Of a stretch of 64,000 bases of DNA, positions 24,609 through 43,049 are shown one piece after another; positions within the stretch are counted from its first letter, which is position 1, and every line of letters begins with the position of its first letter. Made by a program: the position numbers and the translations under genes. Source of the DNA: Cognatiluteimonas lumbrici (GTDB lineage: Bacteria > Pseudomonadota > Gammaproteobacteria > Xanthomonadales > Xanthomonadaceae); the NCBI RefSeq assembly GCF_006476065.1, contig NZ_ML636798.1, positions 1,934,207 through 1,998,206 of the forward strand, in the 5' to 3' direction. Below the pieces are notes generated by a model. It ran no database searches, was not told the origin of the DNA, and was given only the letters and a program-made list of their open reading frames with translations.

Positions 24609-25472
24609 TCAGAACCAGAAGCGGACGCCCGCGACCACGCGGGTGTCATCGGTGGGATGGCCCCCGGCCCGCCGCAGGTCGGCGGTGTTGCCGAAGGCGC
24701 GTTCGTGCGCGATGCCGACATAGGGCGCGAACCGGCGCGTCACCTCGTAGCGTAGCCGCAGGCCCGCCTCGACGGTGGCCAGGCCGGCGCCAAGGCCGCG
24801 CTGCGGATCGCTCCGGCCCCAGGCTTCGGCCCCGGCCTGCCACTGCAGGACCAGGCGGTTGGTCAGCAGGGTGTCGTACTCGGCCTCGACGGCGAGGCCG
24901 GCCTGGCCGTGGTCGCCGAGGTAGGCAGTGGCCTCGACCTCGAACTTCTGCGGCGCCAGGCCGATCACGCCGATCGCGGCATAGGTGCGCGAGGGGCCGT
25001 CCCCGACGTCGTGGCGCACGCCGACCACGCCGTCCCACCAGCGCGAGACGGCGCGGCCGTAGAACAGCTCGAGGTTGGCCGCTTCGACGCGGCCGTCCGC
25101 GGCCTCGCCCTCGCTGCGCAGCCAGGCGCGGTCGAGGTCGGTGCCGATCCACGCCGAAGCCTCCCAGGCCAGCGGGTCGTCGCCGGCGTCGGAAGTCTCG
25201 AGCCGGTCCACCAGCACGAAGGAGTGGATGTCGTCGTGCACCGCGTGGCCCGACAGCCCGGCCGGGAACGCGGCCGCGCGGTCGGCGTCAGTGAGCGGCG
25301 GGATCGGCTCGCGCGGGAGCTGTTCCGACGGCGGTGCATGCGCGTCGTGCTGCGTATGCTCCGCGTGCTCCGTCTGTTGTGCGTGCTGCGCATGGCCGGC
25401 GTGCTGAGCGAACGCCGGCGTCGACAGGGCCGCCAGCGCGGCCACCAGCAGGGTCTGGCGCATGGCGTTCAT
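24609..25472 (-). CDS. copB: Copper resistance outer-membrane protein CopB
   Basis: 287 residues. The signal peptide is MNAMRQTLLVAALAALSTPA, cut before QHAGHAQ. A His-rich segment follows (HAGHAQHAQQTEHAEHTQHD), typical of CopB and likely to hold copper. A CopB beta-barrel runs from FVLVDRLETS to the terminal aromatic VRFWF, the usual C-terminal Phe of outer-membrane proteins. CopB helps sequester or export periplasmic copper with CopA. Its start overlaps the copA stop (ATGA). Confidence 0.93.
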   Translation of the reverse strand: MNAMRQTLLVAALAALSTPAFAQHAGHAQHAQQTEHAEHTQHDAHAPPSEQLPREPIPPLTDADRAAAFPAGLSGHAVHDDIHSFVLVDRLETSDAGDDPLAWEASAWIGTDLDRAWLRSEGEAADGRVEAANLELFYGRAVSRWWDGVVGVRHDVGDGPSRTYAAIGVIGLAPQKFEVEATAYLGDHGQAGLAVEAEYDTLLTNRLVLQWQAGAEAWGRSDPQRGLGAGLATVEAGLRLRYEVTRRFAPYVGIAHERAFGNTADLRRAGGHPTDDTRVVAGVRFWF

Positions 25473-27214
25473 TCCACCACCTGCACTTCGCGGAACATGC
25501 CTGCTTCCATGTGGTACAGCAGGTGGCAATGGTAGGCCCAGCGGCCGAGTGCATCGGCGCGCACGCGGTAGCTGCGCTTGCTGCCCGGCGGCATGTCCAC
25601 GGTGTGCTTGCGCACCATGAACCGGCCGGCTTCGTCCTCCAGGTCGCTCCACATGCCGTGCAGGTGGATCGGGTGCGACATCATGGTGTCGTTGACCAGC
25701 ACGATGCGCAGGCGCTCGCCGTAATTGAGCCGCAGCGGTGCGGCATCGGCGAACCTGAGCCCGTCGAACGACCAGGCGAAGCGCTCCATGTGGCCGGTGA
25801 GGTGCAGCTCGACGGTGCGCCCGGGTTCGCGGCCGTCGGGATCGGCGAACGTGCTCTTCAGGTCGGCGTAGCGGAGCACGCGACGGCCGTTGTCGCGCAG
25901 GCCGATCCCGGGGTCGTCGAGCTTCGGTTCGGGGGTCATGGTCTGCATGTCCACCAGCGGATTCCCGGTTTCGCTGGCCGGATGCTGCTGCATGCCGGCT
26001 GCGCCATGGTCCATGCCGGCCATGCCGTGCATCGAATGCTCCATGCCGCCGTGGCCCATGTCCGCCATGGTCAGGATCGGGCGCGGGTCCGGCGCCGGCA
26101 CCGGCGCGCGCAGGCCTTCGCGCACGGCGAGCGTGCCGCTGACATGCCCGGTGCGACCCAGGTCCTGCGCGAAGATGGTGAACGCGTCCTGCCCCGTCGG
26201 TTCGACGATCACGTCGAAGGTCTCGGCGGTGGCGATGCGGAACTCGTCCACGGTCACCGGGTGGACGTACTGGCCGTCGGCGGCGACCACGGTCATCTTC
26301 AGCCCGGGGATGCGCACGTCGAAATGGGTCATCGCCGAGCCGTTGATGAAGCGCAGCCGCACCTTCTCGCCGGAGCGGAACAGCCCGGTCCAGTTGCCGA
26401 GCGAGGTGGTGCCGTTCATCAGGTAGGTGTAGGTGTTGCCGTTGACGTCCGAGAGGTCGGTCGGGGTCATCCGCATCGCGCCCCAGGCCTTGCGGTCGCG
26501 CAGGGTGGCGGCCAGGCCGTCCTCGCGGACGTCGCGCAGGAAGTCGCCGACCGTGCGCTTGGACAGGTTGTCGTAGTCGGAGCGCTTCTTGAGCCGGTCG
26601 AACAGGTCGGCGGGATCGAGGTCGGTCCAGTCGCTGAGCAGCACCACGTAGTCGCGGTCGCAGGCGAACGGCTCGGGCTCCAGCGGGTCGATGACCAGCG
26701 GCCCGTACAGCCCGGCCTGTTCCTGGAAGCCGGAGTGGCCGTGGTACCAGTAGGTGCCGGCCTGGCGCACGTCGAAGCGGTAGTGGTAGGCCTCGCCGGG
26801 CTGGATGCCGTCGAAGCTCAGCCCGGGCACCCCGTCCATGTTGGCCGGCAGCAGGATGCCGTGCCAGTGGATCGAGGCCTGGCGGCCGTGGATGGAGCCG
26901 GGCGGCAGCGCGTTGCGCACGCGCAGATTGACCGTCGTGCCTTCGCGCCAGCGCAGCAGCGGCGCCGGGATCGAGCCGTTGACGGCGATGCCGGTTCGCA
27001 CGCGCCCAGTGAAGTTGGCGGCGACCTCGCCGATGGACAGGTCGAACTCGGTGCCGGCGAGCACCTGCGGCTGGCCGGGGGACTTGAGCGCCCAGCCCGG
27101 CTTCGGCCACAGGCCGAGCGCGGCGACGGCGCCGCCAGCGGCGAGGCCCTGGACGAAGCGGCGTCGGGACATGTGCGGCAGCGCGTCGGCGCGCTGCCAG
27201 GGTACGTTGGACAT
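25469..27214 (-). CDS. copA: Copper resistance multicopper oxidase CopA (periplasmic)
   Basis: 581 residues. A twin-arginine signal is visible (SRRRFVQGLAAGGAVAALGL). Three cupredoxin domains hold the copper ligands SIHWHGILLP, YWYHGHSGFQ, HPIHLHGMW and HCHLLYHMEAGM. A Met/His-rich loop (GHGGMEHSMHGMAGMDHG) lies in the middle, as in PcoA/CopA. The enzyme oxidises Cu+ and binds extra copper in the periplasm. The start follows GGAG; in-frame ATGs 7 and 14 codons upstream are possible. It lies between copL and copB, the xanthomonad copLAB order. This is distinct from the P-type ATPase also called CopA in other species. Confidence 0.95.
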   Translation of the reverse strand: MSNVPWQRADALPHMSRRRFVQGLAAGGAVAALGLWPKPGWALKSPGQPQVLAGTEFDLSIGEVAANFTGRVRTGIAVNGSIPAPLLRWREGTTVNLRVRNALPPGSIHGRQASIHWHGILLPANMDGVPGLSFDGIQPGEAYHYRFDVRQAGTYWYHGHSGFQEQAGLYGPLVIDPLEPEPFACDRDYVVLLSDWTDLDPADLFDRLKKRSDYDNLSKRTVGDFLRDVREDGLAATLRDRKAWGAMRMTPTDLSDVNGNTYTYLMNGTTSLGNWTGLFRSGEKVRLRFINGSAMTHFDVRIPGLKMTVVAADGQYVHPVTVDEFRIATAETFDVIVEPTGQDAFTIFAQDLGRTGHVSGTLAVREGLRAPVPAPDPRPILTMADMGHGGMEHSMHGMAGMDHGAAGMQQHPASETGNPLVDMQTMTPEPKLDDPGIGLRDNGRRVLRYADLKSTFADPDGREPGRTVELHLTGHMERFAWSFDGLRFADAAPLRLNYGERLRIVLVNDTMMSHPIHLHGMWSDLEDEAGRFMVRKHTVDMPPGSKRSYRVRADALGRWAYHCHLLYHMEAGMFREVQVVE

Positions 27215-27310
27215 CGGAAGCTCCGGAAGCGTCATTTGCCGGCCTGGGCCGGGCACGGGCGCGCCGCGGGACGGGCACGCCGGAGGGCGCCGTGGGCGCC
27301 TGGGGAACGC

Positions 27311-27732: not shown

Positions 27733-27835
27733 ACTGAAACAGTGAATGCCAGGAATCGGCCTTTGTACCGCCGGCTGCGCTCCCAATCTCCTTCGGGCGA
27801 CATCCATCGCAACAGTCACAGAAGGAGCTCCAACA

Positions 27836-28369
27836 ATGCGCAACTCCCCCATCCTCGCCGCCTCGGTCCTCGCCATCGCCCTGGGCGCGGCGTCCTTCGG
27901 CGCCAACGCCGGCAATCCCGACGGCTTCTACGTCGGTGCCGGCGCGGGCCAGTCCATGATCGACGAGGACTTCGCCGATGACGAGGACTTTGCCTACCAG
28001 GTGTTCGGCGGCTACCAGTTCAACCGCTACCTCGGTGCCGAGGCGGCCTATACCGACTTCGGCAAGGTCGACCTGGCCGACAACGTCGGCGAGCTCGAGG
28101 CCGACACCTGGTCGCTGGTGCTGGTGGGCACCGTGCCCTTCACCGAGAAGTTCTCCGGCTACGTGAAGGCGGGCTTCCACGACTGGGACGCCGAGCTGGG
28201 TGTTCCGGACATCGGCTTCGCCGACGACAGCGGCACCGACCCGACCTACGGGCTGGGGCTGCAGTACCGCTTCACGGACAACGTCTCCCTGCGCGGCGAG
28301 TACAGCCGCTTCGAGATGGACGACGTCGACGTCGACCTGGCGCAGCTGCAGGTGCGATTCGACTTCTGA
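27836..28369 (+). CDS. Small outer-membrane beta-barrel protein (OmpA-like/Ail-OmpX type)
   Basis: 177 residues. The signal peptide is SPILAASVLAIALGAASFGA, cut after ANA. The mature part shows alternating aromatic strands of an eight-stranded barrel (GFYVGAGAGQSMI, FGGYQFNRYLGAEAAYTDFG, GLGLQYRFTDNVSLRGEYSR) and ends in Phe (VRFDF). Loops are acidic (DEDFADDEDF, MDDVDVDL). Such barrels give envelope stability or adhesion; no specific ligand is apparent. A GAAGGAG site precedes the ATG. It is monocistronic and ended by a strong hairpin. Confidence 0.88.
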   Translation: MRNSPILAASVLAIALGAASFGANAGNPDGFYVGAGAGQSMIDEDFADDEDFAYQVFGGYQFNRYLGAEAAYTDFGKVDLADNVGELEADTWSLVLVGTVPFTEKFSGYVKAGFHDWDAELGVPDIGFADDSGTDPTYGLGLQYRFTDNVSLRGEYSRFEMDDVDVDLAQLQVRFDF

Positions 28370-28397: not shown

Positions 28398-28428
28398 AGG
28401 CCGGTCCGGTTTTGGGCCGGCCTCTTCT
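28398..28428. terminator. Terminator between the barrel gene and glmS
   Basis: AGGCCGGTCC (28398-28407) pairs with GGGCCGGCCT (28414-28423) over ten base pairs around GGTTTT. A pyrimidine-rich CTTCT follows. It lies between convergent genes and may serve both. Confidence 0.8.
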
Positions 28429-30259
28429 ATTCCACGGTGACCGATTTCGCCAGGTTGCGCGGCTTGTCCACGTCGGTGCCGCGCGCCAGCGCGGCGTGGT
28501 AGGCCAGCAGCTGCACCGGGATCGCGTGCACGATCGGCGACAGGATGCCGGCGTGGCGCGGCGTGCGGATGACGTTGACCTGCTCCGACTCGCCGAACTG
28601 GCTGTCGGCGTCGGCGAACACGAACATCTGGCCGCCGCGCGCGCGGACTTCCTGGATGTTCGACTTCACCTTCTCCAGCAGGCTGTCGTTGGGCGCGATC
28701 ACCACCACCGGCATCGCGTCGTCCACCAGCGCCAGCGGCCCGTGCTTGAGCTCGCCCGCGGGGTAGGCCTCGGCGTGGATGTACGAGATTTCCTTGAGCT
28801 TGAGCGCGCCCTCGAGCGCGATCGGGTAGTGCATGCCGCGCCCGAGGAACAGCGCGTGGTCCTTGGGTGCGAACAGTTCCGCCCAGGCCACGATCTGCGG
28901 TTCCAGGTTGAGCGCGTGCTGGATGCTGCCGGGCAGGTGGCGCAGGCACTCCAGCAGCTCGTCTTCCTGCCGTGCGTCGAGGCGGCCGCGCAGCTTGGCG
29001 AGGGTCGCGGCCAGGGTGAACAGCGCCACCAGCTGGGTGGTGAAGGCCTTGGTCGAGGCGACACCGATCTCGGCGCCGGCGCGGGTGTAGTGCACCAGCC
29101 GGCTGGCGCGCGGGATCGCGCTCTCGGGCACGTTGCAGATGGACAGCGTGCGCGACTGCCCGAGTGACTTCGCGTACTTGAGCGCCTCCATGGTGTCGAG
29201 GGTCTCGCCCGACTGCGAGATCGTCACCACCAGCTGCTTCGGGTTGGCGACCACCTGGCGGTAGCGGTACTCGCTGGCGATGTCCACGGCGCAGGGCAGG
29301 CCGGCCAGCGCCTCGATCCAGTAGCGCGCGGTGAGGCCGGCGTAGTAGCTGGTGCCGCAGGCGAGGATCTGCACCGCCTCGATGCCCTCGAGCACGCCGG
29401 CCGCGTCCTTGCCGAACAGCTCGGCGGAGAACGCATTGTCGTCCATCAGCGCCTCGATGGTGTCGGCGACCGCGCGCGGCTGCTCGTGGATCTCCTTCTG
29501 CATGAAGTGGCGGTACGGGCCGAGCTCGAGCGAGGCCAGCGACACGTCGGACACGTGCACCTCGCGCTCGACCGGGGCGCCGTCGGCGTCGAAGATGCGC
29601 ACCGCGTCGCGGGTCAGTTCGGCGGTGTCGCCTTCCTCCAGGAAGATCACGCGGCGGGTGGACGACACGATCGCCGAGACGTCGGAGGCGACGAAGTTCT
29701 CGCCGTCGCCGAGCCCGACCAGCAGCGGGCAGCCCATGCGCGCGGCGACCATGGTGCCGGGGTCGCGCTTGTCGATCACGGCGATGGCGTAGGCGCCGTG
29801 CAGCTCGCGCACCGCCTGCTGCAGCGCGCCGACCAGGTCCGCGCCCTGCGCGCGGTAATGGTGGATCAGGTGGGCGATGACCTCGGTGTCGGTCTGCGAC
29901 TCGAAGGCGTAGCCGAGCCCGCGCAGGCGCTCGCGCTGGGCCTCGTGGTTCTCGATGATGCCGTTGTGGACGAGCGCGAGTTCGCCGTGGCTGATGTGCG
30001 GGTGCGCGTTGTCCTCGGTCACGCCGCCGTGGGTCGCCCAGCGGGTGTGGCCGATCCCGAGCGTGGCGCTGAAGCCTTCGGCGGCCGCCGCGGACTCCAT
30101 CTCGGAGACGCGCCCGGTGCGGCGCACGCGGCGTACGCCCGTGTCCGCGACCACGGCGATGCCGGCGGAGTCGTAGCCGCGGTACTCGAGCCGTTTGAGG
30201 CCCTCGATGAGCACCGGGACCACGTCACGGCCAGCGATCGCGCCGACGATTCCACACAT
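28427..30259 (-). CDS. glmS: Glutamine-fructose-6-phosphate aminotransferase
   Basis: 610 residues. The class II glutamine amidotransferase domain starts with the nucleophile Cys after Met ([14 protein letters not shown]) and shows [11 protein letters not shown] and [11 protein letters not shown]. Two SIS isomerase domains follow ([28 protein letters not shown]), with the C-terminal tail NLAKSVTVE that closes the active site. It makes glucosamine-6-phosphate, the first step to UDP-GlcNAc. The AAAGGTGG ribosome site precedes the ATG. No glmS ribozyme or sRNA target could be recognised in the short leader. The intergenic region is shared with the divergent sigma-54 operon. Confidence 0.97.
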
Positions 30260-30313: not shown

Positions 30314-30350
30314 CTGTCCGCGCCGGTGTCCGGACGGTGTCCGCGGACAC
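30314..30350. promoter_or_regulatory. Repeated GTGTCCG motifs, candidate enhancer for an NtrC-like activator
   Basis: CTGTCCG at 30314, GTGTCCG at 30326 and GTGTCCG at 30337 are direct repeats 11-12 bp apart, about one helical turn. The last is half of a perfect 14-bp palindrome, GTGTCCGCGGACAC (30337-30350). The block lies about 70-105 bp upstream of the predicted start of the sigma-54 promoter, the normal place for activator sites. The likely binder is the NtrC-like protein encoded as gene five of the same operon (inference). Confidence 0.65.
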
Positions 30351-30393
30351 CCGGCCAAGTCGTGTTCGCCGCGCCAGTGCAACGTTTCCGGCT

Positions 30394-30410
30394 TGGCACG
30401 CATCCTGCTT
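30394..30410 (+). promoter_or_regulatory. Sigma-54 (-24/-12) promoter
   Basis: TTGGCACGCATCCTGCTT contains GG at 30395-30396 and GC at 30407-30408 with exactly ten bases between, the invariant sigma-54 spacing. It matches the consensus TGGCACG-N4-TTGC at all but one position. Transcription would start near 30419, 33 nt before the adaptor ATG. Confidence 0.82.
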
Positions 30411-30451
30411 CCTGGAACGGCAGGACGCGACAGCAAGGGGACACACCAACG

Positions 30452-31729
30452 ATGGGCATCCGCGACACCTCGGGCCAGGACCGGCCCGTCGCCGCTTCCT
30501 CGGCCGCCGGGCGCCAGCGCCGGCAATGGCTGGCCTACGCCGGCGGCGGCGCGCTGGTGCTGCTGCTGGCCGGCTGGCTGCTGTCCGGCTGGGCCGCCGG
30601 CAGCCGCTCGGTGGACGCCTCGCGGCTGCGCATCGCCGAAGTCAGGCGCGGCGACCTGGTGCGCGACATTTCCGCCGAGGGCCGCGTGATCGCGGCCAAC
30701 AGCCCGACCCTGTACGCGGTCGCCGGCGGCACCGTGACCCTGCACGTGGTCGCGGGCGACGTCGTGGAGAAGGGCGACGCGCTGGCCGAGATCGACAGCC
30801 CGGAACTGCGCAGCCGCCTGGCGCAGGAAGAGGCGACGCTTGCCAGCCTCGAGGCCGAAGCCAGCCGCGCCGCGCTCGACGCGCAGCTGGCGCGTTCGGC
30901 CGCGCGGCGCACGCTCGACCAGGCCCTGATCCAGCGCCAGGCCGCCGCGCGCGACCTCGAGCGCAACACCCGCGCCTACGAGGGCGGCGCCGTCGCCCAG
31001 GTGGACGTGGCGCGCGCCGAGGACGCGCTCAAGAGCGCCGAGATCGGGCTCCAGCACGCGCGCCAGGACAGCGCCCTGCAGGATCGCGGCGCCGGCCTCG
31101 ACGTGCGCAACAAGAAACTGCTGGCGGACCGCCAGCGCGCGGTGGTCGCCGAGCTGCAGCGCCAGGTGGACGCGCTGACCCTGCGCGCGCCGTTCGACGG
31201 CCAGGTCGGCCAGGTGCAGGTGCAGCAGCGCGCCAACGTCGCCCAGAACGCGCCGGTGCTCGGGGTGGTCGACCTGACCCGCTTCGAGGTCGAGATCCGG
31301 GTGCCGGAGAGCTTCGCCCGCGACCTCGCCATCGGCATGCCGGCGCAGCTCGCCAGCGGCCGCGGCGAACCCTTCGCCGCCGAGGTCTCGGCGGTGTCGC
31401 CGGAGGTCGTGAACGGCGAAGTCACCGCGCGCCTGCGCTTCAAGGACGGGCAGCCGCCCGGCCTGCGCCAGAACCAGCGCATGTCCGCGCGGATCCTGCT
31501 CGACACCCGCCGCGACGTGCTGATGGTGGACCGCGGCCCGTTCCTGGAACAGGGCGGCGGCGCCAGCGCCTGGGTGATGGACGGCGACGTCGCCGTCAAG
31601 CGTCCGATCCGCACCGGCGCCAGCAGCCTGGGCGCGGTGGAGATCGTGGAAGGACTGCAGGAAGGGGACCGCGTCGTGGTCTCCGGCAGCGACCTGTTCG
31701 GCGATGCCGAGCGCGTGGTCGTCAACTGA
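30452..31729 (+). CDS. HlyD/MacA-like adaptor of a sigma-54-controlled exporter
   Basis: 425 residues. A cytoplasmic N-terminus and one anchor helix (WLAYAGGGALVLLLAGWLLS) lead to lipoyl half-motifs (GGTVTLHVVAGDVVEKGDAL, LRAPFDGQVGQVQVQQRANV). Between them is a long coiled hairpin (EEATLASLEAEASRAALDAQ onward). Beta-barrel and membrane-proximal domains complete the fold. It is gene one of six closely spaced genes (adaptor, ATPase, two permeases, NtrC-like regulator, kinase). The start follows AAGGGG at a rather long distance. The adaptor would bridge to an outer-membrane channel encoded elsewhere. Confidence 0.88.
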   Translation: MGIRDTSGQDRPVAASSAAGRQRRQWLAYAGGGALVLLLAGWLLSGWAAGSRSVDASRLRIAEVRRGDLVRDISAEGRVIAANSPTLYAVAGGTVTLHVVAGDVVEKGDALAEIDSPELRSRLAQEEATLASLEAEASRAALDAQLARSAARRTLDQALIQRQAAARDLERNTRAYEGGAVAQVDVARAEDALKSAEIGLQHARQDSALQDRGAGLDVRNKKLLADRQRAVVAELQRQVDALTLRAPFDGQVGQVQVQQRANVAQNAPVLGVVDLTRFEVEIRVPESFARDLAIGMPAQLASGRGEPFAAEVSAVSPEVVNGEVTARLRFKDGQPPGLRQNQRMSARILLDTRRDVLMVDRGPFLEQGGGASAWVMDGDVAVKRPIRTGASSLGAVEIVEGLQEGDRVVVSGSDLFGDAERVVVN

Positions 31730-31752: not shown

Positions 31753-32475
31753 ATGCTCGAGATGCGCCAGGTCAGCAAGGTCTACCGTACCGAACTCGTC
31801 GAAACCCACGCGCTCCGGGCGCTGGACCTGCACGTGCGCGACGGCGAGTTCGTCGCGGTCACCGGCCCCTCGGGCTCGGGCAAGACCACCTTCCTCAACA
31901 TCGCCGGCCTGCTGGAGACCTTCACCGGCGGCGAGTACCTGCTCGACGGCGAGGACGTGCGCGGCCTCTCCGACGACGCGCGCTCGAGGCTGCGCAACCG
32001 CAAGATCGGCTTCATCTTCCAGAGCTTCAACCTGATCCCGGACCTCAACCTGTTCGACAACTGCGACGTGCCGCTGCGCTACCGGGGCATGAACGCGGCC
32101 GAGCGTCGGCAGCGGATCGAGCAGGCGTTGTCGCAGGTCGGCCTCGGCTCGCGCATGAAGCACTATCCGTCCGAGCTGTCCGGCGGCCAGCAGCAGCGCG
32201 CCGCGATCGCGCGTGCGCTCGCGGGCAGCCCGCGCCTGCTGCTGGCAGACGAGCCGACCGGCAACCTCGACTCGCAGATGGCGCGCGGGGTGATGGAGCT
32301 GCTGGAGGAGATCAACGAGCAGGGCACCACCATCGTCATGGTCACCCACGATCCGGAGCTGGCCGCGCGTGCGCAGCGCAACGTGCACATCGTCGACGGC
32401 ATGGCCACCGACCTGAGCGTGGAGCCGACCCTGCTGCGCGTCGCCTCGGCCTCGCTGGCCGAGTCCAACGGCTGA
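31753..32475 (+). CDS. ABC transporter ATP-binding protein, MacB/LolD type
   Basis: 240 residues with Walker A GPSGSGKTT, Q-loop FQSFNLIPDLNLFDN, signature LSGGQQQRAAIARA, Walker [13 protein letters not shown] and H-loop VMVTHDPE. It energises the two FtsX-like permeases encoded directly after it (13 and 15 nt gaps). It belongs to the same branch as the ATPases at 0.8 and 43 kb but is clearly a separate paralogue. A C-terminal extension of about 20 residues follows the core. Confidence 0.94.
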   Translation: MLEMRQVSKVYRTELVETHALRALDLHVRDGEFVAVTGPSGSGKTTFLNIAGLLETFTGGEYLLDGEDVRGLSDDARSRLRNRKIGFIFQSFNLIPDLNLFDNCDVPLRYRGMNAAERRQRIEQALSQVGLGSRMKHYPSELSGGQQQRAAIARALAGSPRLLLADEPTGNLDSQMARGVMELLEEINEQGTTIVMVTHDPELAARAQRNVHIVDGMATDLSVEPTLLRVASASLAESNG

Positions 32476-32488
32476 GGAGGCCGCCCGC

Positions 32489-33805
32489 ATGTTCGCCTAC
32501 TACTTCGATCTGGCGTTGCGCAGCTTCCGCCGCAACAAGGCACTGACCGCGCTGATGGTGCTCGCCATCGCCCTGGGCATCGGCGCCAGCATGACCACGC
32601 TGACCATCTTCCACGTGCTCTCCGGCGACCCGATCCCGCAGAAGAGCGACCAGCTCTTCTACGTCCAACTCGACCCGGGCTCGATGGACGGCTACGTTGC
32701 CGGCGAGGAGCCCGAGGAGCAGATGACCCGCTACGACGCCGAGGAACTGCTGCGCCAGGCGCGCGGCGACCGCCAGGCGATGATGACCGGCGGCAGCGTG
32801 GCGATCGAATCGCAGAAGGAGGGCTTGGCGCCGTTCTACGCCGACGCCCGCTACACCAGCGCCGACTTCTTCCCGATGTTCGAGCTGCCGTTCCTGTACG
32901 GCAATGGCTGGAGCGCGGAGCAGGACGCGGCGCGCGCGCGGGTGGCGGTGATCAGCAAGGCGCTCAACGACAAGCTGTTCGACGGCGAGGACAGCACCGG
33001 GCGCACGGTGCGCTTCGGCGGCGCCGACTTCCGCGTGGTCGGCGTGCTCGACGCGTGGCGCCCGGTGCCCAAGTTCTACGACCTCAACGCCGGCCGCTAC
33101 GGCGAGGCGGAACAGGCCTACGTGCCGTTCTCGACCTCGCGCGACCTGCGCATGGACCGCAACGGCAGCATGAACTGCTGGCGCAGCGGCGCCAACAGCG
33201 ACGACCCCGAGGGCGAGACCGGCGTCAACGCGCCCTGCACCTGGATCCAGTACTGGGTCGAGCTCGACACGCCCGCCGAGGCCGAGGCATACCGGCAGTA
33301 CCTGGTCGACTACTCCGACCAGCAGCGCGCCGCCGGCCGCTTCCAGCGTCCGACCAACGTGCGCCTGCGCAGCGTGATGGAGTGGCTCGACTACAAGCGC
33401 GTGGTACCCAGCGACGTGCGCATGCAGGTGTGGCTGGCGTTCGGCTTCCTGCTGGTGTGCCTGCTCAACACCGTCGGCCTGCTGCTGGCCAAGTTCATGC
33501 GTCGCGCCAGCGAGATCGGCGTGCGCCGCGCGCTCGGCGCCTCGCGCCGCGCGATCTTCGCGCAGTGCCTGGTCGAGGCCGGCACCGTCGGCCTGGCCGG
33601 CGGCCTGCTCGGCCTCGGGCTCGCCCAGCTCGGCCTGTGGGCGATCCGGCAGCAGCCGACCGGCTTCGCCGACATCCTGCACCTGGACGCATCGATGCTG
33701 CTGACCACTTTCGCGCTCGCGATCCTGGCCAGCGTGCTCGCCGGGCTGCTGCCGGCCTGGCATGCCTGCCAGGTGGCGCCCGCGATCCAGCTCAAGTCGC
33801 AGTAA
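32489..33805 (+). CDS. ABC permease, MacB_PCD/FtsX type (first of two)
   Basis: 438 residues. Helix 1 (LTALMVLAIALGIGASMTTL) is followed by a large periplasmic core domain of about 260 residues (RVAVISKALNDKLF, GRTVRFGGADFRVVGVLDAW). The C-terminal FtsX domain has three helices (WLAFGFLLVCLLNTVGLLLA, EAGTVGLAGGLLGLGLAQLG, LLTTFALAILASVLAGLLPA) and the coupling sequence ASEIGVRRALGASRRAIFAQ. The GVRRALGA motif is conserved in MacB-like permeases. Pairing with a second, different permease implies a heterodimeric exporter. Confidence 0.9.
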   Translation: MFAYYFDLALRSFRRNKALTALMVLAIALGIGASMTTLTIFHVLSGDPIPQKSDQLFYVQLDPGSMDGYVAGEEPEEQMTRYDAEELLRQARGDRQAMMTGGSVAIESQKEGLAPFYADARYTSADFFPMFELPFLYGNGWSAEQDAARARVAVISKALNDKLFDGEDSTGRTVRFGGADFRVVGVLDAWRPVPKFYDLNAGRYGEAEQAYVPFSTSRDLRMDRNGSMNCWRSGANSDDPEGETGVNAPCTWIQYWVELDTPAEAEAYRQYLVDYSDQQRAAGRFQRPTNVRLRSVMEWLDYKRVVPSDVRMQVWLAFGFLLVCLLNTVGLLLAKFMRRASEIGVRRALGASRRAIFAQCLVEAGTVGLAGGLLGLGLAQLGLWAIRQQPTGFADILHLDASMLLTTFALAILASVLAGLLPAWHACQVAPAIQLKSQ

Positions 33806-33820
33806 GCACCGGAGAACGAC

Positions 33821-35047
33821 ATGGAACTGCGCCCCATCCTTTCGACCCTGCGCCGGCACAAGACCGCATCGGCGCTGATCGTGCTCGAGATCGCGCTGAG
33901 CTGCGCGATCATCTGCAACGCCATGTTCCTGATCGGCGGGCGCCTCGAGCGCATGGACCGCCCGACCGGCCAGGCCGAGGACGAGATCGTCCGCATCCAG
34001 ATCACCGGCATCGGCCAGGACGACAACGCCGCCGCCCTGACCGCCACCGACCTGGCCGCGCTGCGCGCGCTGCCGGGGGTGAAGTCGGCCAGCGTCACCA
34101 ACCAGCTCACCTTCGGCGGCAGTTCCTGGAACAGCGGCGTCAACCTCACCCAGGAACAGACCCAGGTAAACCTCAGCAGCAGCACCTACCTCGGCGACGA
34201 AAAGCTGCCGGAGACGCTTGGGCTGCAGCTCGTTTCCGGCCGCTTCTTCACCGCCGACGAAATGGTCGACTGGGACGCGTTCAGCGCCCCGGGCGCCAAC
34301 CTCGCGGTACCGGTGTCCATCATCACCCGCGACATGGCCGAGGCGTTGTGGCCGGGCGAGGATCCGCTCGGCAAGACCTACTACAGCTGGGGCGAGGGCG
34401 GCACGCGCGTGGTCGGGGTGGTGGACAAGCTCGCGCGCCCGAACGAAATGGGCGGCCCCGCGCAGTACTACTACTCGAGCATCCTGCCGCTCCGGATCCC
34501 GTTCAACGTGGGCGGCAACTACGTGCTGCGGGTGGATCCGGATCGCCGGGCGGAAACCCTCGACGCCGCGGAGCAGGCACTGCTGCGCAACGGCCCCAAC
34601 CGCATCATCCTCGAGAAGCAGACGCTCGAGGAGATGCGCAGCGACTACTATCGCCAGGACCGGGCCATGTCCTGGATGCTGGTGATCGTGAGCGTGCTGC
34701 TGCTGGTGGTGACCGCGCTCGGCATCGTCGGCCTGGCCAGTTTCTGGGTCGCGCAGCGGACCAAGCAGATCGGCGTGCGGCGCGCGCTCGGCGCCACCCG
34801 CGGCCAGGTGCTGCGCTACTTCCAGCTCGAGAACTTCGTGCTGGCCACGGCCGGCATCGTGCTCGGGATGATGCTGGCCTACGGCCTCAACCAGCTGATG
34901 ATGGAACGCGCGGAACTGCCGCGGCTGCCGGCGATCTACCTGCCGGTCGGCGCCCTGGTGCTGTGGCTCCTGGGCCAGCTCTCAGTCTTCGGCCCCGCCC
35001 GCCGCGCCGCCGCCGTCCCCCCCGCAGTCGCGACGAGGAGCGTGTAG
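33821..35047 (+). CDS. ABC permease, MacB_PCD/FtsX type (second of two)
   Basis: 408 residues with the same fold as the preceding permease but little sequence identity. Helix 1 is IVLEIALSCAIICNAMFLIG, with a periplasmic core between. C-terminal helices include WMLVIVSVLLLVVTALGIVG and FVLATAGIVLGMMLAYGLNQ, with the coupling motif TKQIGVRRALGATRGQVLRY. The Asn/Ser-rich loop around residues 95-130 is unlike the partner. It likely forms the second half of the membrane channel. The response regulator gene begins 17 nt after its stop. Confidence 0.9.
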   Translation: MELRPILSTLRRHKTASALIVLEIALSCAIICNAMFLIGGRLERMDRPTGQAEDEIVRIQITGIGQDDNAAALTATDLAALRALPGVKSASVTNQLTFGGSSWNSGVNLTQEQTQVNLSSSTYLGDEKLPETLGLQLVSGRFFTADEMVDWDAFSAPGANLAVPVSIITRDMAEALWPGEDPLGKTYYSWGEGGTRVVGVVDKLARPNEMGGPAQYYYSSILPLRIPFNVGGNYVLRVDPDRRAETLDAAEQALLRNGPNRIILEKQTLEEMRSDYYRQDRAMSWMLVIVSVLLLVVTALGIVGLASFWVAQRTKQIGVRRALGATRGQVLRYFQLENFVLATAGIVLGMMLAYGLNQLMMERAELPRLPAIYLPVGALVLWLLGQLSVFGPARRAAAVPPAVATRSV

Positions 35048-35064: not shown

Positions 35065-36414
<1,350 letters not shown>

Positions 36415-36415
36415 G

Positions 36416-37726
36416 ATGCGCTGGCGCCAGCGGCTGCCGCTGCGCCTGCAGTTCGCGGCGCTGGCGCTGCTCTACGTGGCCGCGGCGGCCGGACTCGCGC
36501 TGCTGCTGTCGCAGTGGCTGCGGCCGCCGTGGGCGGCGTTGCTCGCGGTCGCGCTGCTGGCGCCGCTCTTGCTGTACCACGTGCAGCGGCTGTTCGCGCC
36601 GATGCGCGCGCTGTTCCGCGCGCTCGCCGGCAGCGTCGCCAGCTACCGCGACGGCGACTTCGCGTTCGGGGTCAACTGGGACGGCCGCGACGAACTTGGC
36701 GAACTGGTGGCCAGCCACAACGCACTCGGCGACGTGCTCCGCGAGCAGCGGCTGGCGCTGGTGCAGCGCGAGCTGCTGCTGGACACGATGGTGCAGAACA
36801 CGCCGGTGGCGATGGTGCTGGTGGATCCGTCGCGCCGGGTGGTCCACGGGAACATTGCCGCGCGCAAGCTGCTGGGCGATGGCCATCGGCTCGAAGGCAG
36901 GCACTTCGAGACGCTGCTCGAGGGCACGCCCGACGCGGTACGCGAGGCGTTCTCGCGCGGTGGAGACGGCATGTTCACCGTCGGCGAGGACGACGCAGAG
37001 GAGATCTTCCACCTCGCGCGGCGCCAGTTCCGGCTCAATGGCCGGCGCCACGAACTGGTGCTGCTGCGCCAGCTCACCGCCGAGCTGCGCCGCCAGGAGG
37101 TGCAGACCTGGAAGAAGGTGATCCGCGTGATCAGCCACGAACTCAACAACTCGCTGGCGCCGATCGCCTCGCTCGCGCACTCCGGCGCGGAACTGCTGCG
37201 CCGCGGCCAGCTCGAGCGCCTGCCCACCGCGCTGGCCACGATCGAGGAGCGCGCGCGCCACCTCGAGGGCTTCATCCGCGACTACGCGCACTTCGCCAAG
37301 CTGCCGGCGCCGCGGCTGCAGCCGGTGGAGTGGCGGCGCTTCATCGCGCAGCTGCGCAGCCAGGTGGAGTTCGTGGCCGAAGGCGGCAACGACGACCGCA
37401 TCGGCCGCTTCGATCCGGCGCAGCTGGAACAGGCGCTGCTCAACCTGCTGAAGAACGCGCACGAATCCGGCTCGCCGGCGCACGAGGTGAAGCTGGTGCT
37501 GCGCCGCGCCGGCGAAGGCTGGCGACTCGAGGTGCTCGACCGCGGCAGCGGCATGAACGAAGCGGTGCTCTCGAACGCGCTGCTGCCGTTCTATTCCACC
37601 AAGCGCCACGGCACCGGCCTCGGGCTTGCGCTCGCGCGCGAGATCGCGGAGGCGCACGGCGGCCGCATCGCGCTGCTCAACCGCGACCGCGGCGGGCTCT
37701 GCGTCGCGATCCACCTTCCTGACTAG
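36416..37726 (+). CDS. Membrane sensor histidine kinase, NtrY-like
   Basis: 436 residues. Two N-terminal helices (LQFAALALLYVAAAAGLALL, AALLAVALLAPLLLYHVQRL) enclose almost no periplasmic loop. A HAMP-like linker (DELGELVASHNALGDVLREQ) and a PAS domain (LDTMVQNTPVAMVLVDPSRR) follow. The H-box VISHELNNSLAPI places the phospho-His near residue 241. N-box NLLKNAHES and G boxes DRGSGM and GTGLGLALAREIAEAHGG complete the kinase. Without an outside sensor domain it may sense the exporter, the membrane or a cytoplasmic cue. It is the natural partner of the adjacent NtrC-like regulator. Confidence 0.93.
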   Translation: MRWRQRLPLRLQFAALALLYVAAAAGLALLLSQWLRPPWAALLAVALLAPLLLYHVQRLFAPMRALFRALAGSVASYRDGDFAFGVNWDGRDELGELVASHNALGDVLREQRLALVQRELLLDTMVQNTPVAMVLVDPSRRVVHGNIAARKLLGDGHRLEGRHFETLLEGTPDAVREAFSRGGDGMFTVGEDDAEEIFHLARRQFRLNGRRHELVLLRQLTAELRRQEVQTWKKVIRVISHELNNSLAPIASLAHSGAELLRRGQLERLPTALATIEERARHLEGFIRDYAHFAKLPAPRLQPVEWRRFIAQLRSQVEFVAEGGNDDRIGRFDPAQLEQALLNLLKNAHESGSPAHEVKLVLRRAGEGWRLEVLDRGSGMNEAVLSNALLPFYSTKRHGTGLGLALAREIAEAHGGRIALLNRDRGGLCVAIHLPD

Positions 37727-38794: not shown

Positions 38795-40666
38795 TCAGGG
38801 CGCCGGTGCGTAGCGCAGGGTCAACCCATACTCGCGGCCCGGCTGTCCGTAGTAGGCGACGGTCTCGTAATCGCGGTCGAGCGCGTTGCGCAGCGCGGCC
38901 TGCAGGGTCCAGCCCCTGCCGAGCGCGGTCTCCGCGCGCAGGTCCAGCGTCGCGTACCCGGCCATGCGCAGCACGTTGCCGGCGTCGTCGAAGGCTTCGC
39001 CCCTGGCCAGCAGGGTCGCGCCCAGGCGCCAGCGGCCGAGCTCGCGGTCCACGTCCAGCCGCGCGCTGCGCCGCGCGCGCCGCGGCAGCTGCTTGCCGTC
39101 GAGCGCCGCGCTGCGGTTGCGCGCATCCAGCAGCGTCGCCTGCAGTGCCAGCTCCCAGCCGGCCAGCGTGGTGCCGCCGCCGAGTTCGAGCCCGCGGATC
39201 TCGCCATGCTCGATGTTGTTGGCCTGGAACCGCTGCGGGTCGTACACGATCAGGTCGTCGACGACGGTCCGGTAGGCGTTCGCCTGCCAGTGCCAGCCAT
39301 CCCGGCGTTGCGCGATGCCGAGCTCGCTGCTGCGCGAGGTCTCCGGGCGCAGCGCCGGGTTGCCGTAGAACGGGTAGTACAGCTCGTTGAAGGTCGGCGC
39401 CTTGAACGCGGTGCCGTGGCTGGCGCTCAGGCGCAGGCCGTCGCCGAGGTCCATGCCCCAGGCGAGGCTGCCGGTGTCGTGGCCACCGAACTGGTCGTTG
39501 TCGTCGTGGCGGGCGGCGAGCTGCACGTCGTGGCGGCCGAAGCTGCCCTGGTACTGCGCGAACCCGGCGCGGTTGCCGCGGCGCTCGTCGAAGGACGCGA
39601 AGGGGCCTTCCACGCCGCCGCTGTCGCGCGACCAGTCGGCGCCGAGGGTGAGCAATTGCGACTTCGCCAGGGTGAGGTCCGCCTGCAGGCCGGCGCTGTC
39701 GCGGCGGGTCCGGAAGCCGTCGGTCGCGGTGCCGGCGAGGTCGTTGTCGGAGCGGTCCACGTGGCGTCCCGCGGACAGGCGCAACGCGAGCCTGCCGCCG
39801 TCGTCGCGGCGCAGCTGCACGCCGGTGACCTGCTGCAGCGTGCGCGAGCGGTCGGGCAGCCCCCACGCCGGGTCGGCGTCGTACTCGTTGAGGCCCTCGC
39901 TGCGCAGCAGGCGCGCGTTGCCGCTCCAGCCATTGCCGCCGTCGAAGCCGGCGCGCAGCGAGAGTGCGTGGTTCTCGTAACCGTCGCGGTCGGGATCGGG
40001 CTGGTCCATGCCGCAACCGGCGAACACCGGCGTGGCGATGCCGCGGCAGGCGTCGATGCCGTCGCTGGACTGGTGGCTGGCGTCCACCCCGAACCACGCA
40101 TGCTCGCCGCCGATGTCGAGGCCGGCGCCCAGTTCGCGCAGGCGGTGGCTGCCGGCGCCGGCGTGGAAGCGGGTGTGCACGCCCTTGCGCGCGCCGCGGG
40201 TGAACACCTGGATGACGCCGCCGAGCGCCTCGCTGCCGTACAGGCCCGAGCGCGGCCCGCGGACGATCTCGATGCGCTCGATGAGCTCCAGCGGCAGGTC
40301 CTGCAGTGCGGTCAGCCCGGAGGTGGCGGAGCCGACGCGCACGCCATCGACGAGGAACAGGGTGTGGTCGGATTCGGTCCCGCGCAGGAACAGGGTCGAG
40401 ACCTTGCCGATGCCACCCTGGTTGGAGAGGTCGATGCCGGCGCGGCCGCGCAGCAGGTCCTGCAGCGAGCGCGCCTGGCTGCGCTCGATCTGGTCGCGGT
40501 CGATCACTTCGACCGCTGCGAGCGAGGCGTCTGCGGTGGTCGCGGTGCGGGTGGCGGTGACCAGGACGTTGTCGAGGTCGGTGGTCTGCGCCGCGGCGGC
40601 CGCGGGCAGGGCGAGGGAAACGGCCAGCGAGGCCGCGAGGATCGTCTTCCGCAATTGCATGTGCAT
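38795..40666 (-). CDS. btuB: TonB-dependent vitamin B12 receptor
   Basis: 623 residues. The signal peptide ILAASLAVSLALPAAAAAQT precedes a TonB box (DNVLVTATRT). The plug domain shows LQDLLRGRAGIDLSNQGG, LFLRGTESDHTLFLVDGV and RIEIVRGPRSGLYGSEALGG. A 22-strand barrel follows, with the TonB-receptor signature ASHGTAFKAPTFNELYYP and the closing strand REYGLTLRYAP. It imports cobalamin across the outer membrane. The cobalamin riboswitch in its leader makes the B12 assignment firm. Two in-frame ATGs (40664 and 40658 sides) are both near GGAG. The imported B12 would serve the class II RNR in this window. Confidence 0.93.
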   Translation of the reverse strand: MHMQLRKTILAASLAVSLALPAAAAAQTTDLDNVLVTATRTATTADASLAAVEVIDRDQIERSQARSLQDLLRGRAGIDLSNQGGIGKVSTLFLRGTESDHTLFLVDGVRVGSATSGLTALQDLPLELIERIEIVRGPRSGLYGSEALGGVIQVFTRGARKGVHTRFHAGAGSHRLRELGAGLDIGGEHAWFGVDASHQSSDGIDACRGIATPVFAGCGMDQPDPDRDGYENHALSLRAGFDGGNGWSGNARLLRSEGLNEYDADPAWGLPDRSRTLQQVTGVQLRRDDGGRLALRLSAGRHVDRSDNDLAGTATDGFRTRRDSAGLQADLTLAKSQLLTLGADWSRDSGGVEGPFASFDERRGNRAGFAQYQGSFGRHDVQLAARHDDNDQFGGHDTGSLAWGMDLGDGLRLSASHGTAFKAPTFNELYYPFYGNPALRPETSRSSELGIAQRRDGWHWQANAYRTVVDDLIVYDPQRFQANNIEHGEIRGLELGGGTTLAGWELALQATLLDARNRSAALDGKQLPRRARRSARLDVDRELGRWRLGATLLARGEAFDDAGNVLRMAGYATLDLRAETALGRGWTLQAALRNALDRDYETVAYYGQPGREYGLTLRYAPAP

Positions 40667-40796
40667 GGTCTCCGGCGTGCACGCCCGCACGCCAAGGGTG
40701 GTCGGGAGTTGCACGCGGAAGGCAGGCTGCGAAGGGGTCGCGTGGAGGGAGTCCGGCGACGCCGCCGCCGCGACGCCCTCCGCGCCGCAACCAGTC
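40667..40796 (-). promoter_or_regulatory. btuB leader between riboswitch and start codon
   Basis: No gene is seen here. Reading toward btuB, GGCGTG and CACGCC (complements of 40688-40693 and 40674-40679) form a hairpin that ends at the GGAG ribosome site. Further GC-rich inverted repeats lie upstream. The segment is the expected expression platform of the riboswitch; hiding of the ribosome site is more likely than termination because no T-tract is present. Confidence 0.45.
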
Positions 40797-40985
40797 TGCT
40801 CCGTGGCCGGTCTCCGGACTCGCGAGCGGGATGGTTCCCCGGGACGGCGCCTTCCCGTGCCTTGCACAGTGGCTGCCTTGAGCGGCGTGTTGCCGTCCCT
40901 TGTCTCGCTTACCGTTGCGGGGGCAGTGCCGGAATGACCGCTTGCGCGGCGTCACCGGCTTCCCGTTTCAACCCGTCGGCAGGCC
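40797..40985 (-). ncRNA. Cobalamin (AdoCbl) riboswitch
   Basis: On the minus strand the conserved blocks occur in order: GAAACGGGAAGCCGGTGACG, CACTGCCCCCGCAACGGTAA, GCCACTGTGCAAGGCACGGG and the B12 box AGTCCGGAGACCGGCC. These are the core and box of the class I cobalamin riboswitch. It represses the downstream receptor gene when intracellular adenosylcobalamin is plentiful. Ends are approximate. Confidence 0.95.
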
Positions 40986-41822: not shown

Positions 41823-43048
41823 ATGAAGTTCGAGAGGAAATGGCTGGCGGCCATCCTGGTGGTGGCCGTGGTCGCGCTGCCGCTGCTGGTGCGCGGCTGC
41901 CGCGGCGATTCGGCGAAGCAGGTCGAGCTGGTGACGGTGGAGGCGCGCGCCATCGATCCGACCATCCTCGCGCCCGGCACGCTGGCGTACCGCAACGAGG
42001 TGAACCTGACGTCCGAGATCACCGGCCGCGTCGCCTCCATCGCCATCAAGGAAGGCGACATGGTGCGCGAGGGCCAGGTGCTGCTTAGCCTGGATCCGGA
42101 GATCTACCGCAACGCGGTGGATCGCGCCGAGGCCGGGGTGCGCCAGGGCAGGCTGGTGATCGACCGGCAGCGGGCGACGCTGGCGTTGCGCCAGCGCCAG
42201 TTCGACCGCGCCGAGGCGCTGGTCAGGGAACGCATGATCGACCAGGGCAGCTTCGACGAGGCCCGCAACCAGCTGCAGGTGGCGCAGCTGGACCTGCGCA
42301 CCAGCCAGGAGGACTTCCGCCGCGCGCAGTCGGCGCTCGAGGACGCGCGCGAGCAGTTGTCCAAGACCACCATCCGCTCGCCGATCACCGGCCGCATCGT
42401 GTCGCTGCCGATCAAGGTCGGCGAGACCGCGGTGCCTTCCACGTCGTCGTTCGTGGGCGCGCAGCTGGCGAAGATCGCCGACACCTCGCGGATCCAGGCC
42501 GAGCTCAAGGTGGACGAGGCCGACATCGCGCGGGTGGCGGTCGGGCAGGCCGCCGACGTCTACGCCGCTGCCTACCCCGACGACGCGCTGCAGGGCCGGG
42601 TCGAGCAGATCGCGCTGGCGCCGACGGTCGAGGGCCAGGGCCGCGCCTACGAGGTGACGGTGGCGCTGGAGGTGCCGGACGGGATCGACCTGCGCTCGGG
42701 CATGAGCGTGCGCGCCGAGATCGCGCTGGGCGACGGCGCGCAACTGCCGGCGGTGCCGGTCGAGGCGATCGTCACCGAGTTCGACGAGGACCGGCAGCCC
42801 ACCCACTACGCGTGGAAGGTCGAGGACGGCAGCGCCAGCAAGGTCGAGGTGCAGGTCGGCATCGCCGACGACGCCTGGCAGTCGGTCGGCGAACCGTTGC
42901 AGGCCGGCGACACCATCGTCCGCGGCCCCGCGCGCGTGCTGCGCCAGCTGCAGGACGGCGACCGCGTCGAGCAGCGCAAGGATGGCGCCGGCGAAGGGGA
43001 AGGCGGCGACGGCGGCGAAGACGACGGGGCCGGCGCGGACGCGGAGTG

Positions 43049-43049
<1 letters not shown>
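41823..43049 (+). CDS. macA-like: MacA-like periplasmic adaptor subunit
   Basis: 408 residues. One anchor helix ([20 protein letters not shown]) is followed by lipoyl halves ([40 protein letters not shown]), a coiled hairpin and barrel domains. An acidic Gly/Glu/Asp tail ([20 protein letters not shown]) is unusual. The gene overlaps the ATPase start (TGATG). With the ATPase and permease it makes a MacAB-type tripartite exporter; in E. coli MacAB exports macrolides and heme-like or peptide substrates, but that cannot be carried over directly. Confidence 0.9.

Follow-up and report, generated by a model that had tools for sequence, protein, structure and literature searches.

How an exporter operon is switched on, and for what cargo, is the question raised by a short intergenic region in a 64,000-nucleotide stretch of the Cognatiluteimonas lumbrici genome (contig NZ_ML636798.1; hereafter the window). 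The region is the 192-bp gap between glmS and a divergent operon of six plus-strand genes encoding an adaptor, an ATPase, two MacB/FtsX permeases, an NtrC-type regulator and a kinase. It holds a sigma-54 promoter element and, spanning positions 30314-30350 ahead of the operon, a cluster of TGTCCG/CGGACA half-sites. Sigma-54 promoters and NtrC-type regulators are textbook types. We propose, with a probability of nearly nine in ten, that the gap carries the sigma-54 promoter and enhancer of an autoregulated exporter operon, whose own phosphorylated regulator would bind the half-sites and activate RpoN polymerase.

The promoter and operator in the window and its relatives

The -24/-12 element TGGCACGCATCCTGCT is located at 30394-30409 (plus strand), with the GG-N10-GC arrangement and the place given in an earlier note on this DNA, and it has one mismatch to TGGCACGN4TTGCW. 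If the -24 G is 30396, transcription is predicted to start at about 30420, which would leave a leader of about 32 nt and put the half-sites at about -106 to -70; the note had placed them about 70-105 bp upstream. Below, half-sites are numbered from the first T of TGGCA. CTGTCCG (30314-30320) contains the outer forward half-site TGTCCG (30315-30320, at -79), and GTGTCCG (30326-30332) contains an inner forward one (30327-30332, at -67), overlapped by the reverse half-site CGGACG on the minus strand (30331-30336, at -63). The palindrome GTGTCCGCGGACAC (30337-30350) consists of GTGTCCG (30337-30343) and its reverse copy (30344-30350), with a forward half-site at -56 and the outer reverse half-site at -50. 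The (C/G)TGTCCG copies start at 30314, 30326 and 30337, that is, at spacings of 12 and 11 bp with the last copy in the palindrome, as had been described.

Single words of the type STGTCCG show no enrichment in the window (35 against 32.4 expected), and sigma-54-like matches with at most two mismatches number 6 against 12.4 expected; the sigma-54 match by itself is unremarkable, and among the six only that at 30394-30409 has a single mismatch. The clustering is different. Four STGTCCG-type words lie within 45 bp, and the cluster is not attributable to chance, because none of 200 first-order Markov shuffles of the window gave a maximum above 1 or 2. In the 130 bp before the promoter there are seven GTCCG/CGGAC words, and of 12 relaxed sigma-54 matches in the window this is the sole one with more than one such word. 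Chance or GC-rich repetition was rejected as an explanation on the basis of Markov shuffles and of control windows.

Orthologous loci were collected by an adaptor scan of named genomes, from which the best 80 of 178 relatives (67-85% identical) were taken; they belong to Luteimonas, Lysobacter, Xanthomonas, Stenotrophomonas, Pseudoxanthomonas, Thermomonas, Vulcaniibacterium and unclassified kin. Within the genus of the window, the adaptor was found at 77% identity or more in 8 of 9 genomes, its own included, and not in G003. GG-N10-GC with TGGCA precedes the adaptor gene in every one of the 80 loci, and the window's element combines GG-N10-GC, TGGCA and TGC upstream of a gene, as expected of a sigma-54 promoter. 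A forward half-site occurs at -80 to -75 in 79 loci and a reverse one at -53 to -48 in 75. The earlier note had set conservation of the repeats at orthologous loci as one of its tests beforehand, and both outer half-sites were found in 74 of the 80. In 52 non-redundant upstream regions, 248 half-sites (YGTCCG/CGGACR) lie between -100 and -41, against 8.1 +/- 3.0 in Markov shuffles, and just 8 lie in the 40 bp next to the promoter; 51 of these regions have T at -7. We regard this conservation of promoter and half-sites as decisive: at the level of sequence, the promoter and the half-site cluster are confirmed as real and conserved, and inverted sites conserved upstream of a -24/-12 element are what is expected of an enhancer.

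The organization of the cluster, however, is inverted and not simply tandem. Although the copies and their one-turn spacing are present in the window, one-turn-spaced direct repeats as the functional unit were not supported by the 80 relatives, in which an outer forward half-site near -78 and an outer reverse one near -50 are almost constant and the inner ones vary. The inner half-sites form two separate inverted pairs at 25 loci (layout A), are nested around TGTCCGCGGACA at 45 (layout B), are mixed at 4 and follow neither arrangement at 6. On a regulator tree of 67 rows, with 8 rows that carry neither label not counted, a single change separates A from B (support 100/99).

Which regulator acts on the operator

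That the half-sites serve glmS, which functions in cell-wall precursor synthesis, and lie near the exporter incidentally is the most improbable of the alternatives: glmS is on the opposite strand in 79 of the 80 family loci and an envelope function would fit, but the half-sites are in register with the sigma-54 element of the exporter, the one family locus without glmS (L061) keeps the operator, and so do exporters outside the family whose fetched upstream stretch showed no glmS. Outside the family, glmS was seen in the fetched upstream stretch at one exporter locus only (G081), and the operator is present there too. On this evidence the operator is independent of glmS, because exporters outside the family keep it where no glmS was found upstream.

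A more serious question is whether the regulator of the operon or another sigma-54 activator binds the half-sites. The genome of the window has one rpoN, and its sigma-54 activator domains comprise three strong and two weak matches; two strong activator domains besides that of the operon could therefore be candidates. We addressed this by co-occurrence across the order, in which 71 of 121 genomes have an adaptor homologue (E 1e-30 or better); upstream regions were read for the adaptor-bearing genomes outside the family of the window and for a few inside it. Three or more half-sites within the 260 bp preceding the exporter were found in 33 of 34 genomes with a regulator orthologue and in none of 16 without one (Fisher p 3.5e-12, which overstates the significance, since the genomes are related). 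The 34 comprise 23 with the regulator in the fetched operon stretch and 11 from the whole-genome search. The count left out L221 and L222, whose stretches start at the adaptor and hold no upstream DNA, four loci of unknown regulator status (L171, L173, L198 and L228) and four paralogous exporters. In the 34th genome (L166), the sigma-54 element and half-sites are present farther upstream. The sigma-54 element lies within 160 bp in 32 of the 34, and at or beyond that limit in L166 and L172.

The unlinked regulators and the paralogues carry most of the weight in this argument. Where the regulator is not next to the exporter, the operator is still present; the regulator lies about 1 Mb away in G014 and G065 and on another contig in G033 and G023. 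Conversely, all four paralogous exporters in regulator-bearing genomes are without the operator. The recognition helix, encoded in the window by codons 36346-36369 (plus strand), reads SRQALYRR at 32 of 35 order-level loci and SRQSLYRR at one, and was not found by the search expression at two; both misses are the single regulator of G131, whose operator is weak, and the regulator of G027 was also counted twice. Another activator of the genome as the binding protein is thus very unlikely: the operator accompanies this regulator's orthologues (57-70% identity in the genomes searched whole), it is absent in 16 of 16 genomes where the whole-genome search found no orthologue or only a 43% relative, and the helix is nearly invariant. 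We infer with high confidence that the regulator of the operon itself binds the half-sites.

Some observations tell against an operon controlled by its own regulator. By linkage alone the association is weaker: all 23 loci with the regulator in the fetched stretch have three or more half-sites, but the operator was also present at 10 loci where that stretch held no regulator (the linkage-only Fisher test left out loci with less than 7.5 kb downstream and no regulator). A whole-genome search of 30 genomes found that each of these 10 holds a regulator orthologue elsewhere (64-69% identity). The presence of the regulator clusters by family, and the comparison of 33/34 with 0/16 rests on few independent events, because the 16 negative genomes concentrate in four families (11 in f7, 3 in f4, 1 in f9 and 1 in f10). 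In addition, an element resembling a site for integration host factor (IHF) is degenerate in the window (AGTGCAACGTTTC, 30376-30388, plus strand), with 5 of 9 letters of the consensus WATCAANNNNTTR. In the 52 upstream regions, the best match had at least 7 of 9 letters in 46, 45 of them at -17/-18, a count made with no shuffled control. The genome of the window has four Bac_DNA_binding genes.

The proposed mechanism is accordingly a simple one. The phosphorylated product of gene five would bind the inverted TGTCCG half-site pairs that lie some 70-106 bp ahead of the transcription start and would activate RpoN polymerase at TGGCACG-N4-CTGCT, so that more exporter, regulator and kinase would be made; in many relatives, IHF bending may assist. 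The suggestion of the earlier note that the gene-five regulator drives its own exporter is supported by the co-occurrence of operator and regulator, but it appears incomplete, since in relatives the same type of promoter also precedes genes for small peptides.

Second promoters and small proteins

The operator pattern YGTCCG-N2-CGGACA alone gave no signal above a reversed control, and the scans therefore combined the operator with the sigma-54 spacing. Half-sites with a sigma-54 element at the right distance were found in 49 of 60 family genomes. The matches total 93 against 23 for the reversed pattern in these genomes, 96 against 15 in the 18 genomes of family f12, and 7 against 10 in the 62 genomes of families f4-f10, all sums being added by eye with overlapping matches counted. 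Among the f4-f10 genomes tested for the regulator, 16 were without it and two (G126 and G131) had it.

Twenty sites were hand-picked from the family scan matches: 8 are the exporter and 12 are elsewhere, and all 12 precede a small open reading frame (ORF) of 55-158 amino acids followed by trmL. Starting instead from trmL (60 loci, 6 from the genus of the window and 54 from the rest of the family sample), the same promoter with at least three half-sites was found in the 1 kb upstream at 18 loci; the reverse strand gave 0/60, shuffles gave 0 and control windows 0/1014. At 16 of the 18, a separate ORF with a hydrophobic start lies in between. Ten of these ORFs encode 130-158 amino acids with VQVRPSAEQ-type repeats, and six encode 55-102 amino acids. 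Two of three VQVRPSAEQ-type proteins tested match the NCBIfam family XAC0231 (NF052303) above its cut-off and the third falls below it; short unrelated ORFs form the other trmL-linked group. Eight peptides not of the XAC0231 class, drawn from this and other families, reached the cut-off of no NCBIfam family, and five peptides had no above-cut-off match in Pfam.

Mostly outside the family of the window, we chose 59 non-exporter sites by hand among those listed, favouring clean ones (L444, from G128, and L449, from G103 and the family scan, lie inside the family). An ORF of 40-100 amino acids with a strongly hydrophobic start begins within 185 nt of the promoter at 31 of these, against 117 of 3480 random positions; trmL is within 900 bp at 17, all of them among the 31. 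A typical small peptide reads MKFExLMLRGLFxACLxVCGLxLGAM...CALPPDGVVCPR. Other sites stand before longer ORFs that look secreted and end like RWQSFLPGVIK (L424, L428 and L447; a shorter one in L442), or, as judged by eye, hydrolase-like proteins or further adaptor and permease genes; some of these other sites will be chance matches. Taken together, the sites indicate that the switch motif marks a small regulon, and in some relatives small peptide genes, frequently neighbours of trmL, are probably also under this regulator. In L280 to L288, the leader of longer trmL-linked genes has a conserved stretch like TTGACC...TACTACCTTACTACCACACC about 90-150 nt past the sigma-54 element, possibly a second promoter of the sigma-70 type. 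At L295 (G012), and also in G174 as judged by the operator position, the exporter operon directly follows trmL and is not beside glmS.

It may be asked whether the second sites regulate trmL or its neighbours, with small ORFs that are incidental or untranslated. The frequency of trmL near the chosen sites would fit this explanation (its presence at the 18 family sites is by construction), as would two loci of the window's genus described below. However, the small hydrophobic-start ORF stands between promoter and trmL at all 17 chosen sites and 16 of the 18 family sites, and similar peptides occur at nine sites where no trmL was found. In each of the 12 small-ORF pairs compared, the nonsynonymous rate (dN) is below the synonymous rate (dS), which is the pattern of coding sequence, although the pairs share sequences, and one class of the ORFs belongs to a named family, XAC0231. 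Regulation of trmL or its neighbours as the purpose of these promoters is unlikely.

Because the pump and the peptides with a hydrophobic start share one switch, the peptides may be cargo or signals, which is a conjecture; in its simplest form, peptides exported by Sec would be expelled from the periplasm by the MacB-like pump. Alternatively, the small proteins may sit in the membrane and modulate the pump or an envelope stress response. There are precedents for small pump regulators, and many of the proteins have 43-73 amino acids and a single hydrophobic segment, with no clear site for signal peptidase on inspection by eye. On the other hand, XAC0231-type proteins have a signal-peptide-like start with several repeats downstream, and C-terminal parts such as CALPPDGVVCP are conserved past the hydrophobic segment. 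We give the modulators somewhat less than an even chance, which makes them about as likely as cargo or signals.

The connection of the switch with peptides is also opposed by several findings. The strict pattern was unmatched in 11 of the 60 family genomes, and the second promoter is missing at 42 of the 60 family trmL loci. In L302 and L303, both from the genus of the window, the hydrophobic frame reads through into trmL with no stop codon intervening, as though the peptide had been joined to trmL or absorbed by it. The genome of the window itself has no trmL match at E 1e-30, and the two strict matches listed for it are both at the exporter, although another scan counted 3 in this genome, their places not being listed. 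Thus this genome has the pump and no recognized peptide, which counts against a single obligatory cargo. It is 2.36 Mb in size, among the smaller of the 9 genus genomes searched, and has another half-site pair at C1:428420.

The operon and related systems

The first gene of the operon (30452-31729; all six on the plus strand) encodes a periplasmic adaptor of the HlyD/MacA type, above the cut-off of NCBIfam RND_mfp, and is preceded by the ribosome site AAGGGGA (30435-30441). It is followed by the ATP-binding cassette (ABC) ATPase (31753-32475) and two MacB/FtsX-type permeases (32489-33805 and 33821-35047). Adaptor, ATPase, MacB periplasmic core and FtsX domains are all present, as in a MacAB-type exporter. 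The best NCBIfam match of the ATPase is DarD, and the darobactin exporter models were not reached (DarD, 263.4 bits with a cut-off of 375; DarC, 43.7 with a cut-off of 450). No outer-membrane channel is encoded among the six genes, and a genome-wide search for one was not made. In nine relatives, the best match of permease 1 is displaced downstream by several kb compared with the window. Additional permease genes probably stand between the ATPase and regulator genes there, and several permease pairs may share a single adaptor and a single ATPase.

The response regulator, the proposed activator (35065-36414), has a receiver, an AAA+ sigma-54 activator domain and a Fis-type helix-turn-helix, which places it among NtrC-type regulators, and it reaches the cut-off of none of the 25 NCBIfam models shown (of 88). 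At the sigma-54 contact loop, where GAFTGA is usual, it reads GAYTGA, as in all 51 regulator orthologues that the search expression matched, with 19 of 70 not matched by it. The sensor kinase (36416-37726) has two close N-terminal membrane segments and no periplasmic domain was seen; by hydropathy only, 62 of 63 family proteins read have this form, essentially without a periplasmic domain. Because the kinase has almost no periplasmic part, sensing probably takes place within the membrane, perhaps by way of the FtsX-type permeases. Several order-level kinases (L168, L223, L225 and L227) have a longer loop joining the membrane segments, which speaks against this. Bce-type kinases have two membrane helices with almost no extracytoplasmic loop and no sensing domain, and the hydropathy of the family proteins agrees with this description.

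Like NtrC, AtoC, ZraR and GlrR, the regulator here combines a receiver, a sigma-54 activator domain and a Fis-type helix-turn-helix and is encoded in an operon with its kinase, and the inverted half-sites upstream of a -24/-12 element are also as in NtrC-type systems. In contrast to these systems, the target is a MacB/FtsX exporter and, in relatives, small peptide genes; TGTCCG is not known as a half-site of NtrC, AtoC, ZraR or GlrR. The promoter resembles an ordinary sigma-54 enhancer site, and its motif is distinctive enough to probe a regulon. The transporter resembles MacAB-TolC and other MacB-type peptide exporters in its adaptor, ATPase and MacB/FtsX permeases, the ATPase being closest to DarD. 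Unlike in MacAB-TolC and the darobactin exporter, the ATPase is separate from the two permeases and below the DarD cut-off, with no channel gene among the six.

MacB-type pumps are reported to take a Sec-exported peptide from the periplasm, with enterotoxin STII as the model, and the two-component system coupled to BceAB, a transporter related to MacB, is reported to need that transporter for sensing (PMC5985334). The present operon may be compared with BceAB of Firmicutes in its joining of a transporter to a two-component system with a near-loopless kinase, but it differs in the Gram-negative host, the sigma-54-dependent regulator and the adaptor protein. A 2025 survey presented sigma-54 regulation of FtsX-like permeases as first evidence, in a section naming Opitutia (PMC12316311); its main text does not contain the terms Xanthomonad, Lysobacter or MacB, and the passages in question name neither the operon nor the operator nor the peptides. 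Likewise, the main text of a study of RpoN1 and RpoN2 in Xanthomonas campestris is without HlyD, permease, MacA and glmS (PMC7280030). Our literature search, which missed most subscription papers, found no publication describing the operon, operator or peptides, and no paper on XAC0231. That family, which the trmL-linked VQVRPSAEQ-type proteins resemble, is itself only a name; its promoter and its link to the exporter are described here from sequence.

A wider circuit can be suggested tentatively, although we consider it doubtful at present: the near-loopless kinase and the NtrC-type regulator would control the MacB-like exporter together with a set of small secreted peptides that change fast, and the pump would both export these peptides and monitor them. 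The trmL-linked peptides, the XAC0231 repeat proteins and the CALPPDGVVCP peptides could, no more firmly, be its peptide set. If it exists, this sigma-54 peptide circuit would be a Gram-negative counterpart of the peptide-exporter-kinase circuits of Gram-positive bacteria. In any case, a conserved exporter is tied to small proteins previously unconnected with it, in several families of one order that includes relatives of crop and hospital bacteria. Through the peptides, the questions of what the pump carries and what the kinase senses become open to direct test.

On the other side of the gap, glmS occupies 28427-30259 (minus strand). Farther out, the neighbours at 24609-27256 (minus), 38795-40867 (minus), 27746-28369 (plus) and 41823-43049 (plus) are CopB and a multicopper oxidase, a TonB-dependent receptor, an outer-membrane barrel protein and a second HlyD-type adaptor.
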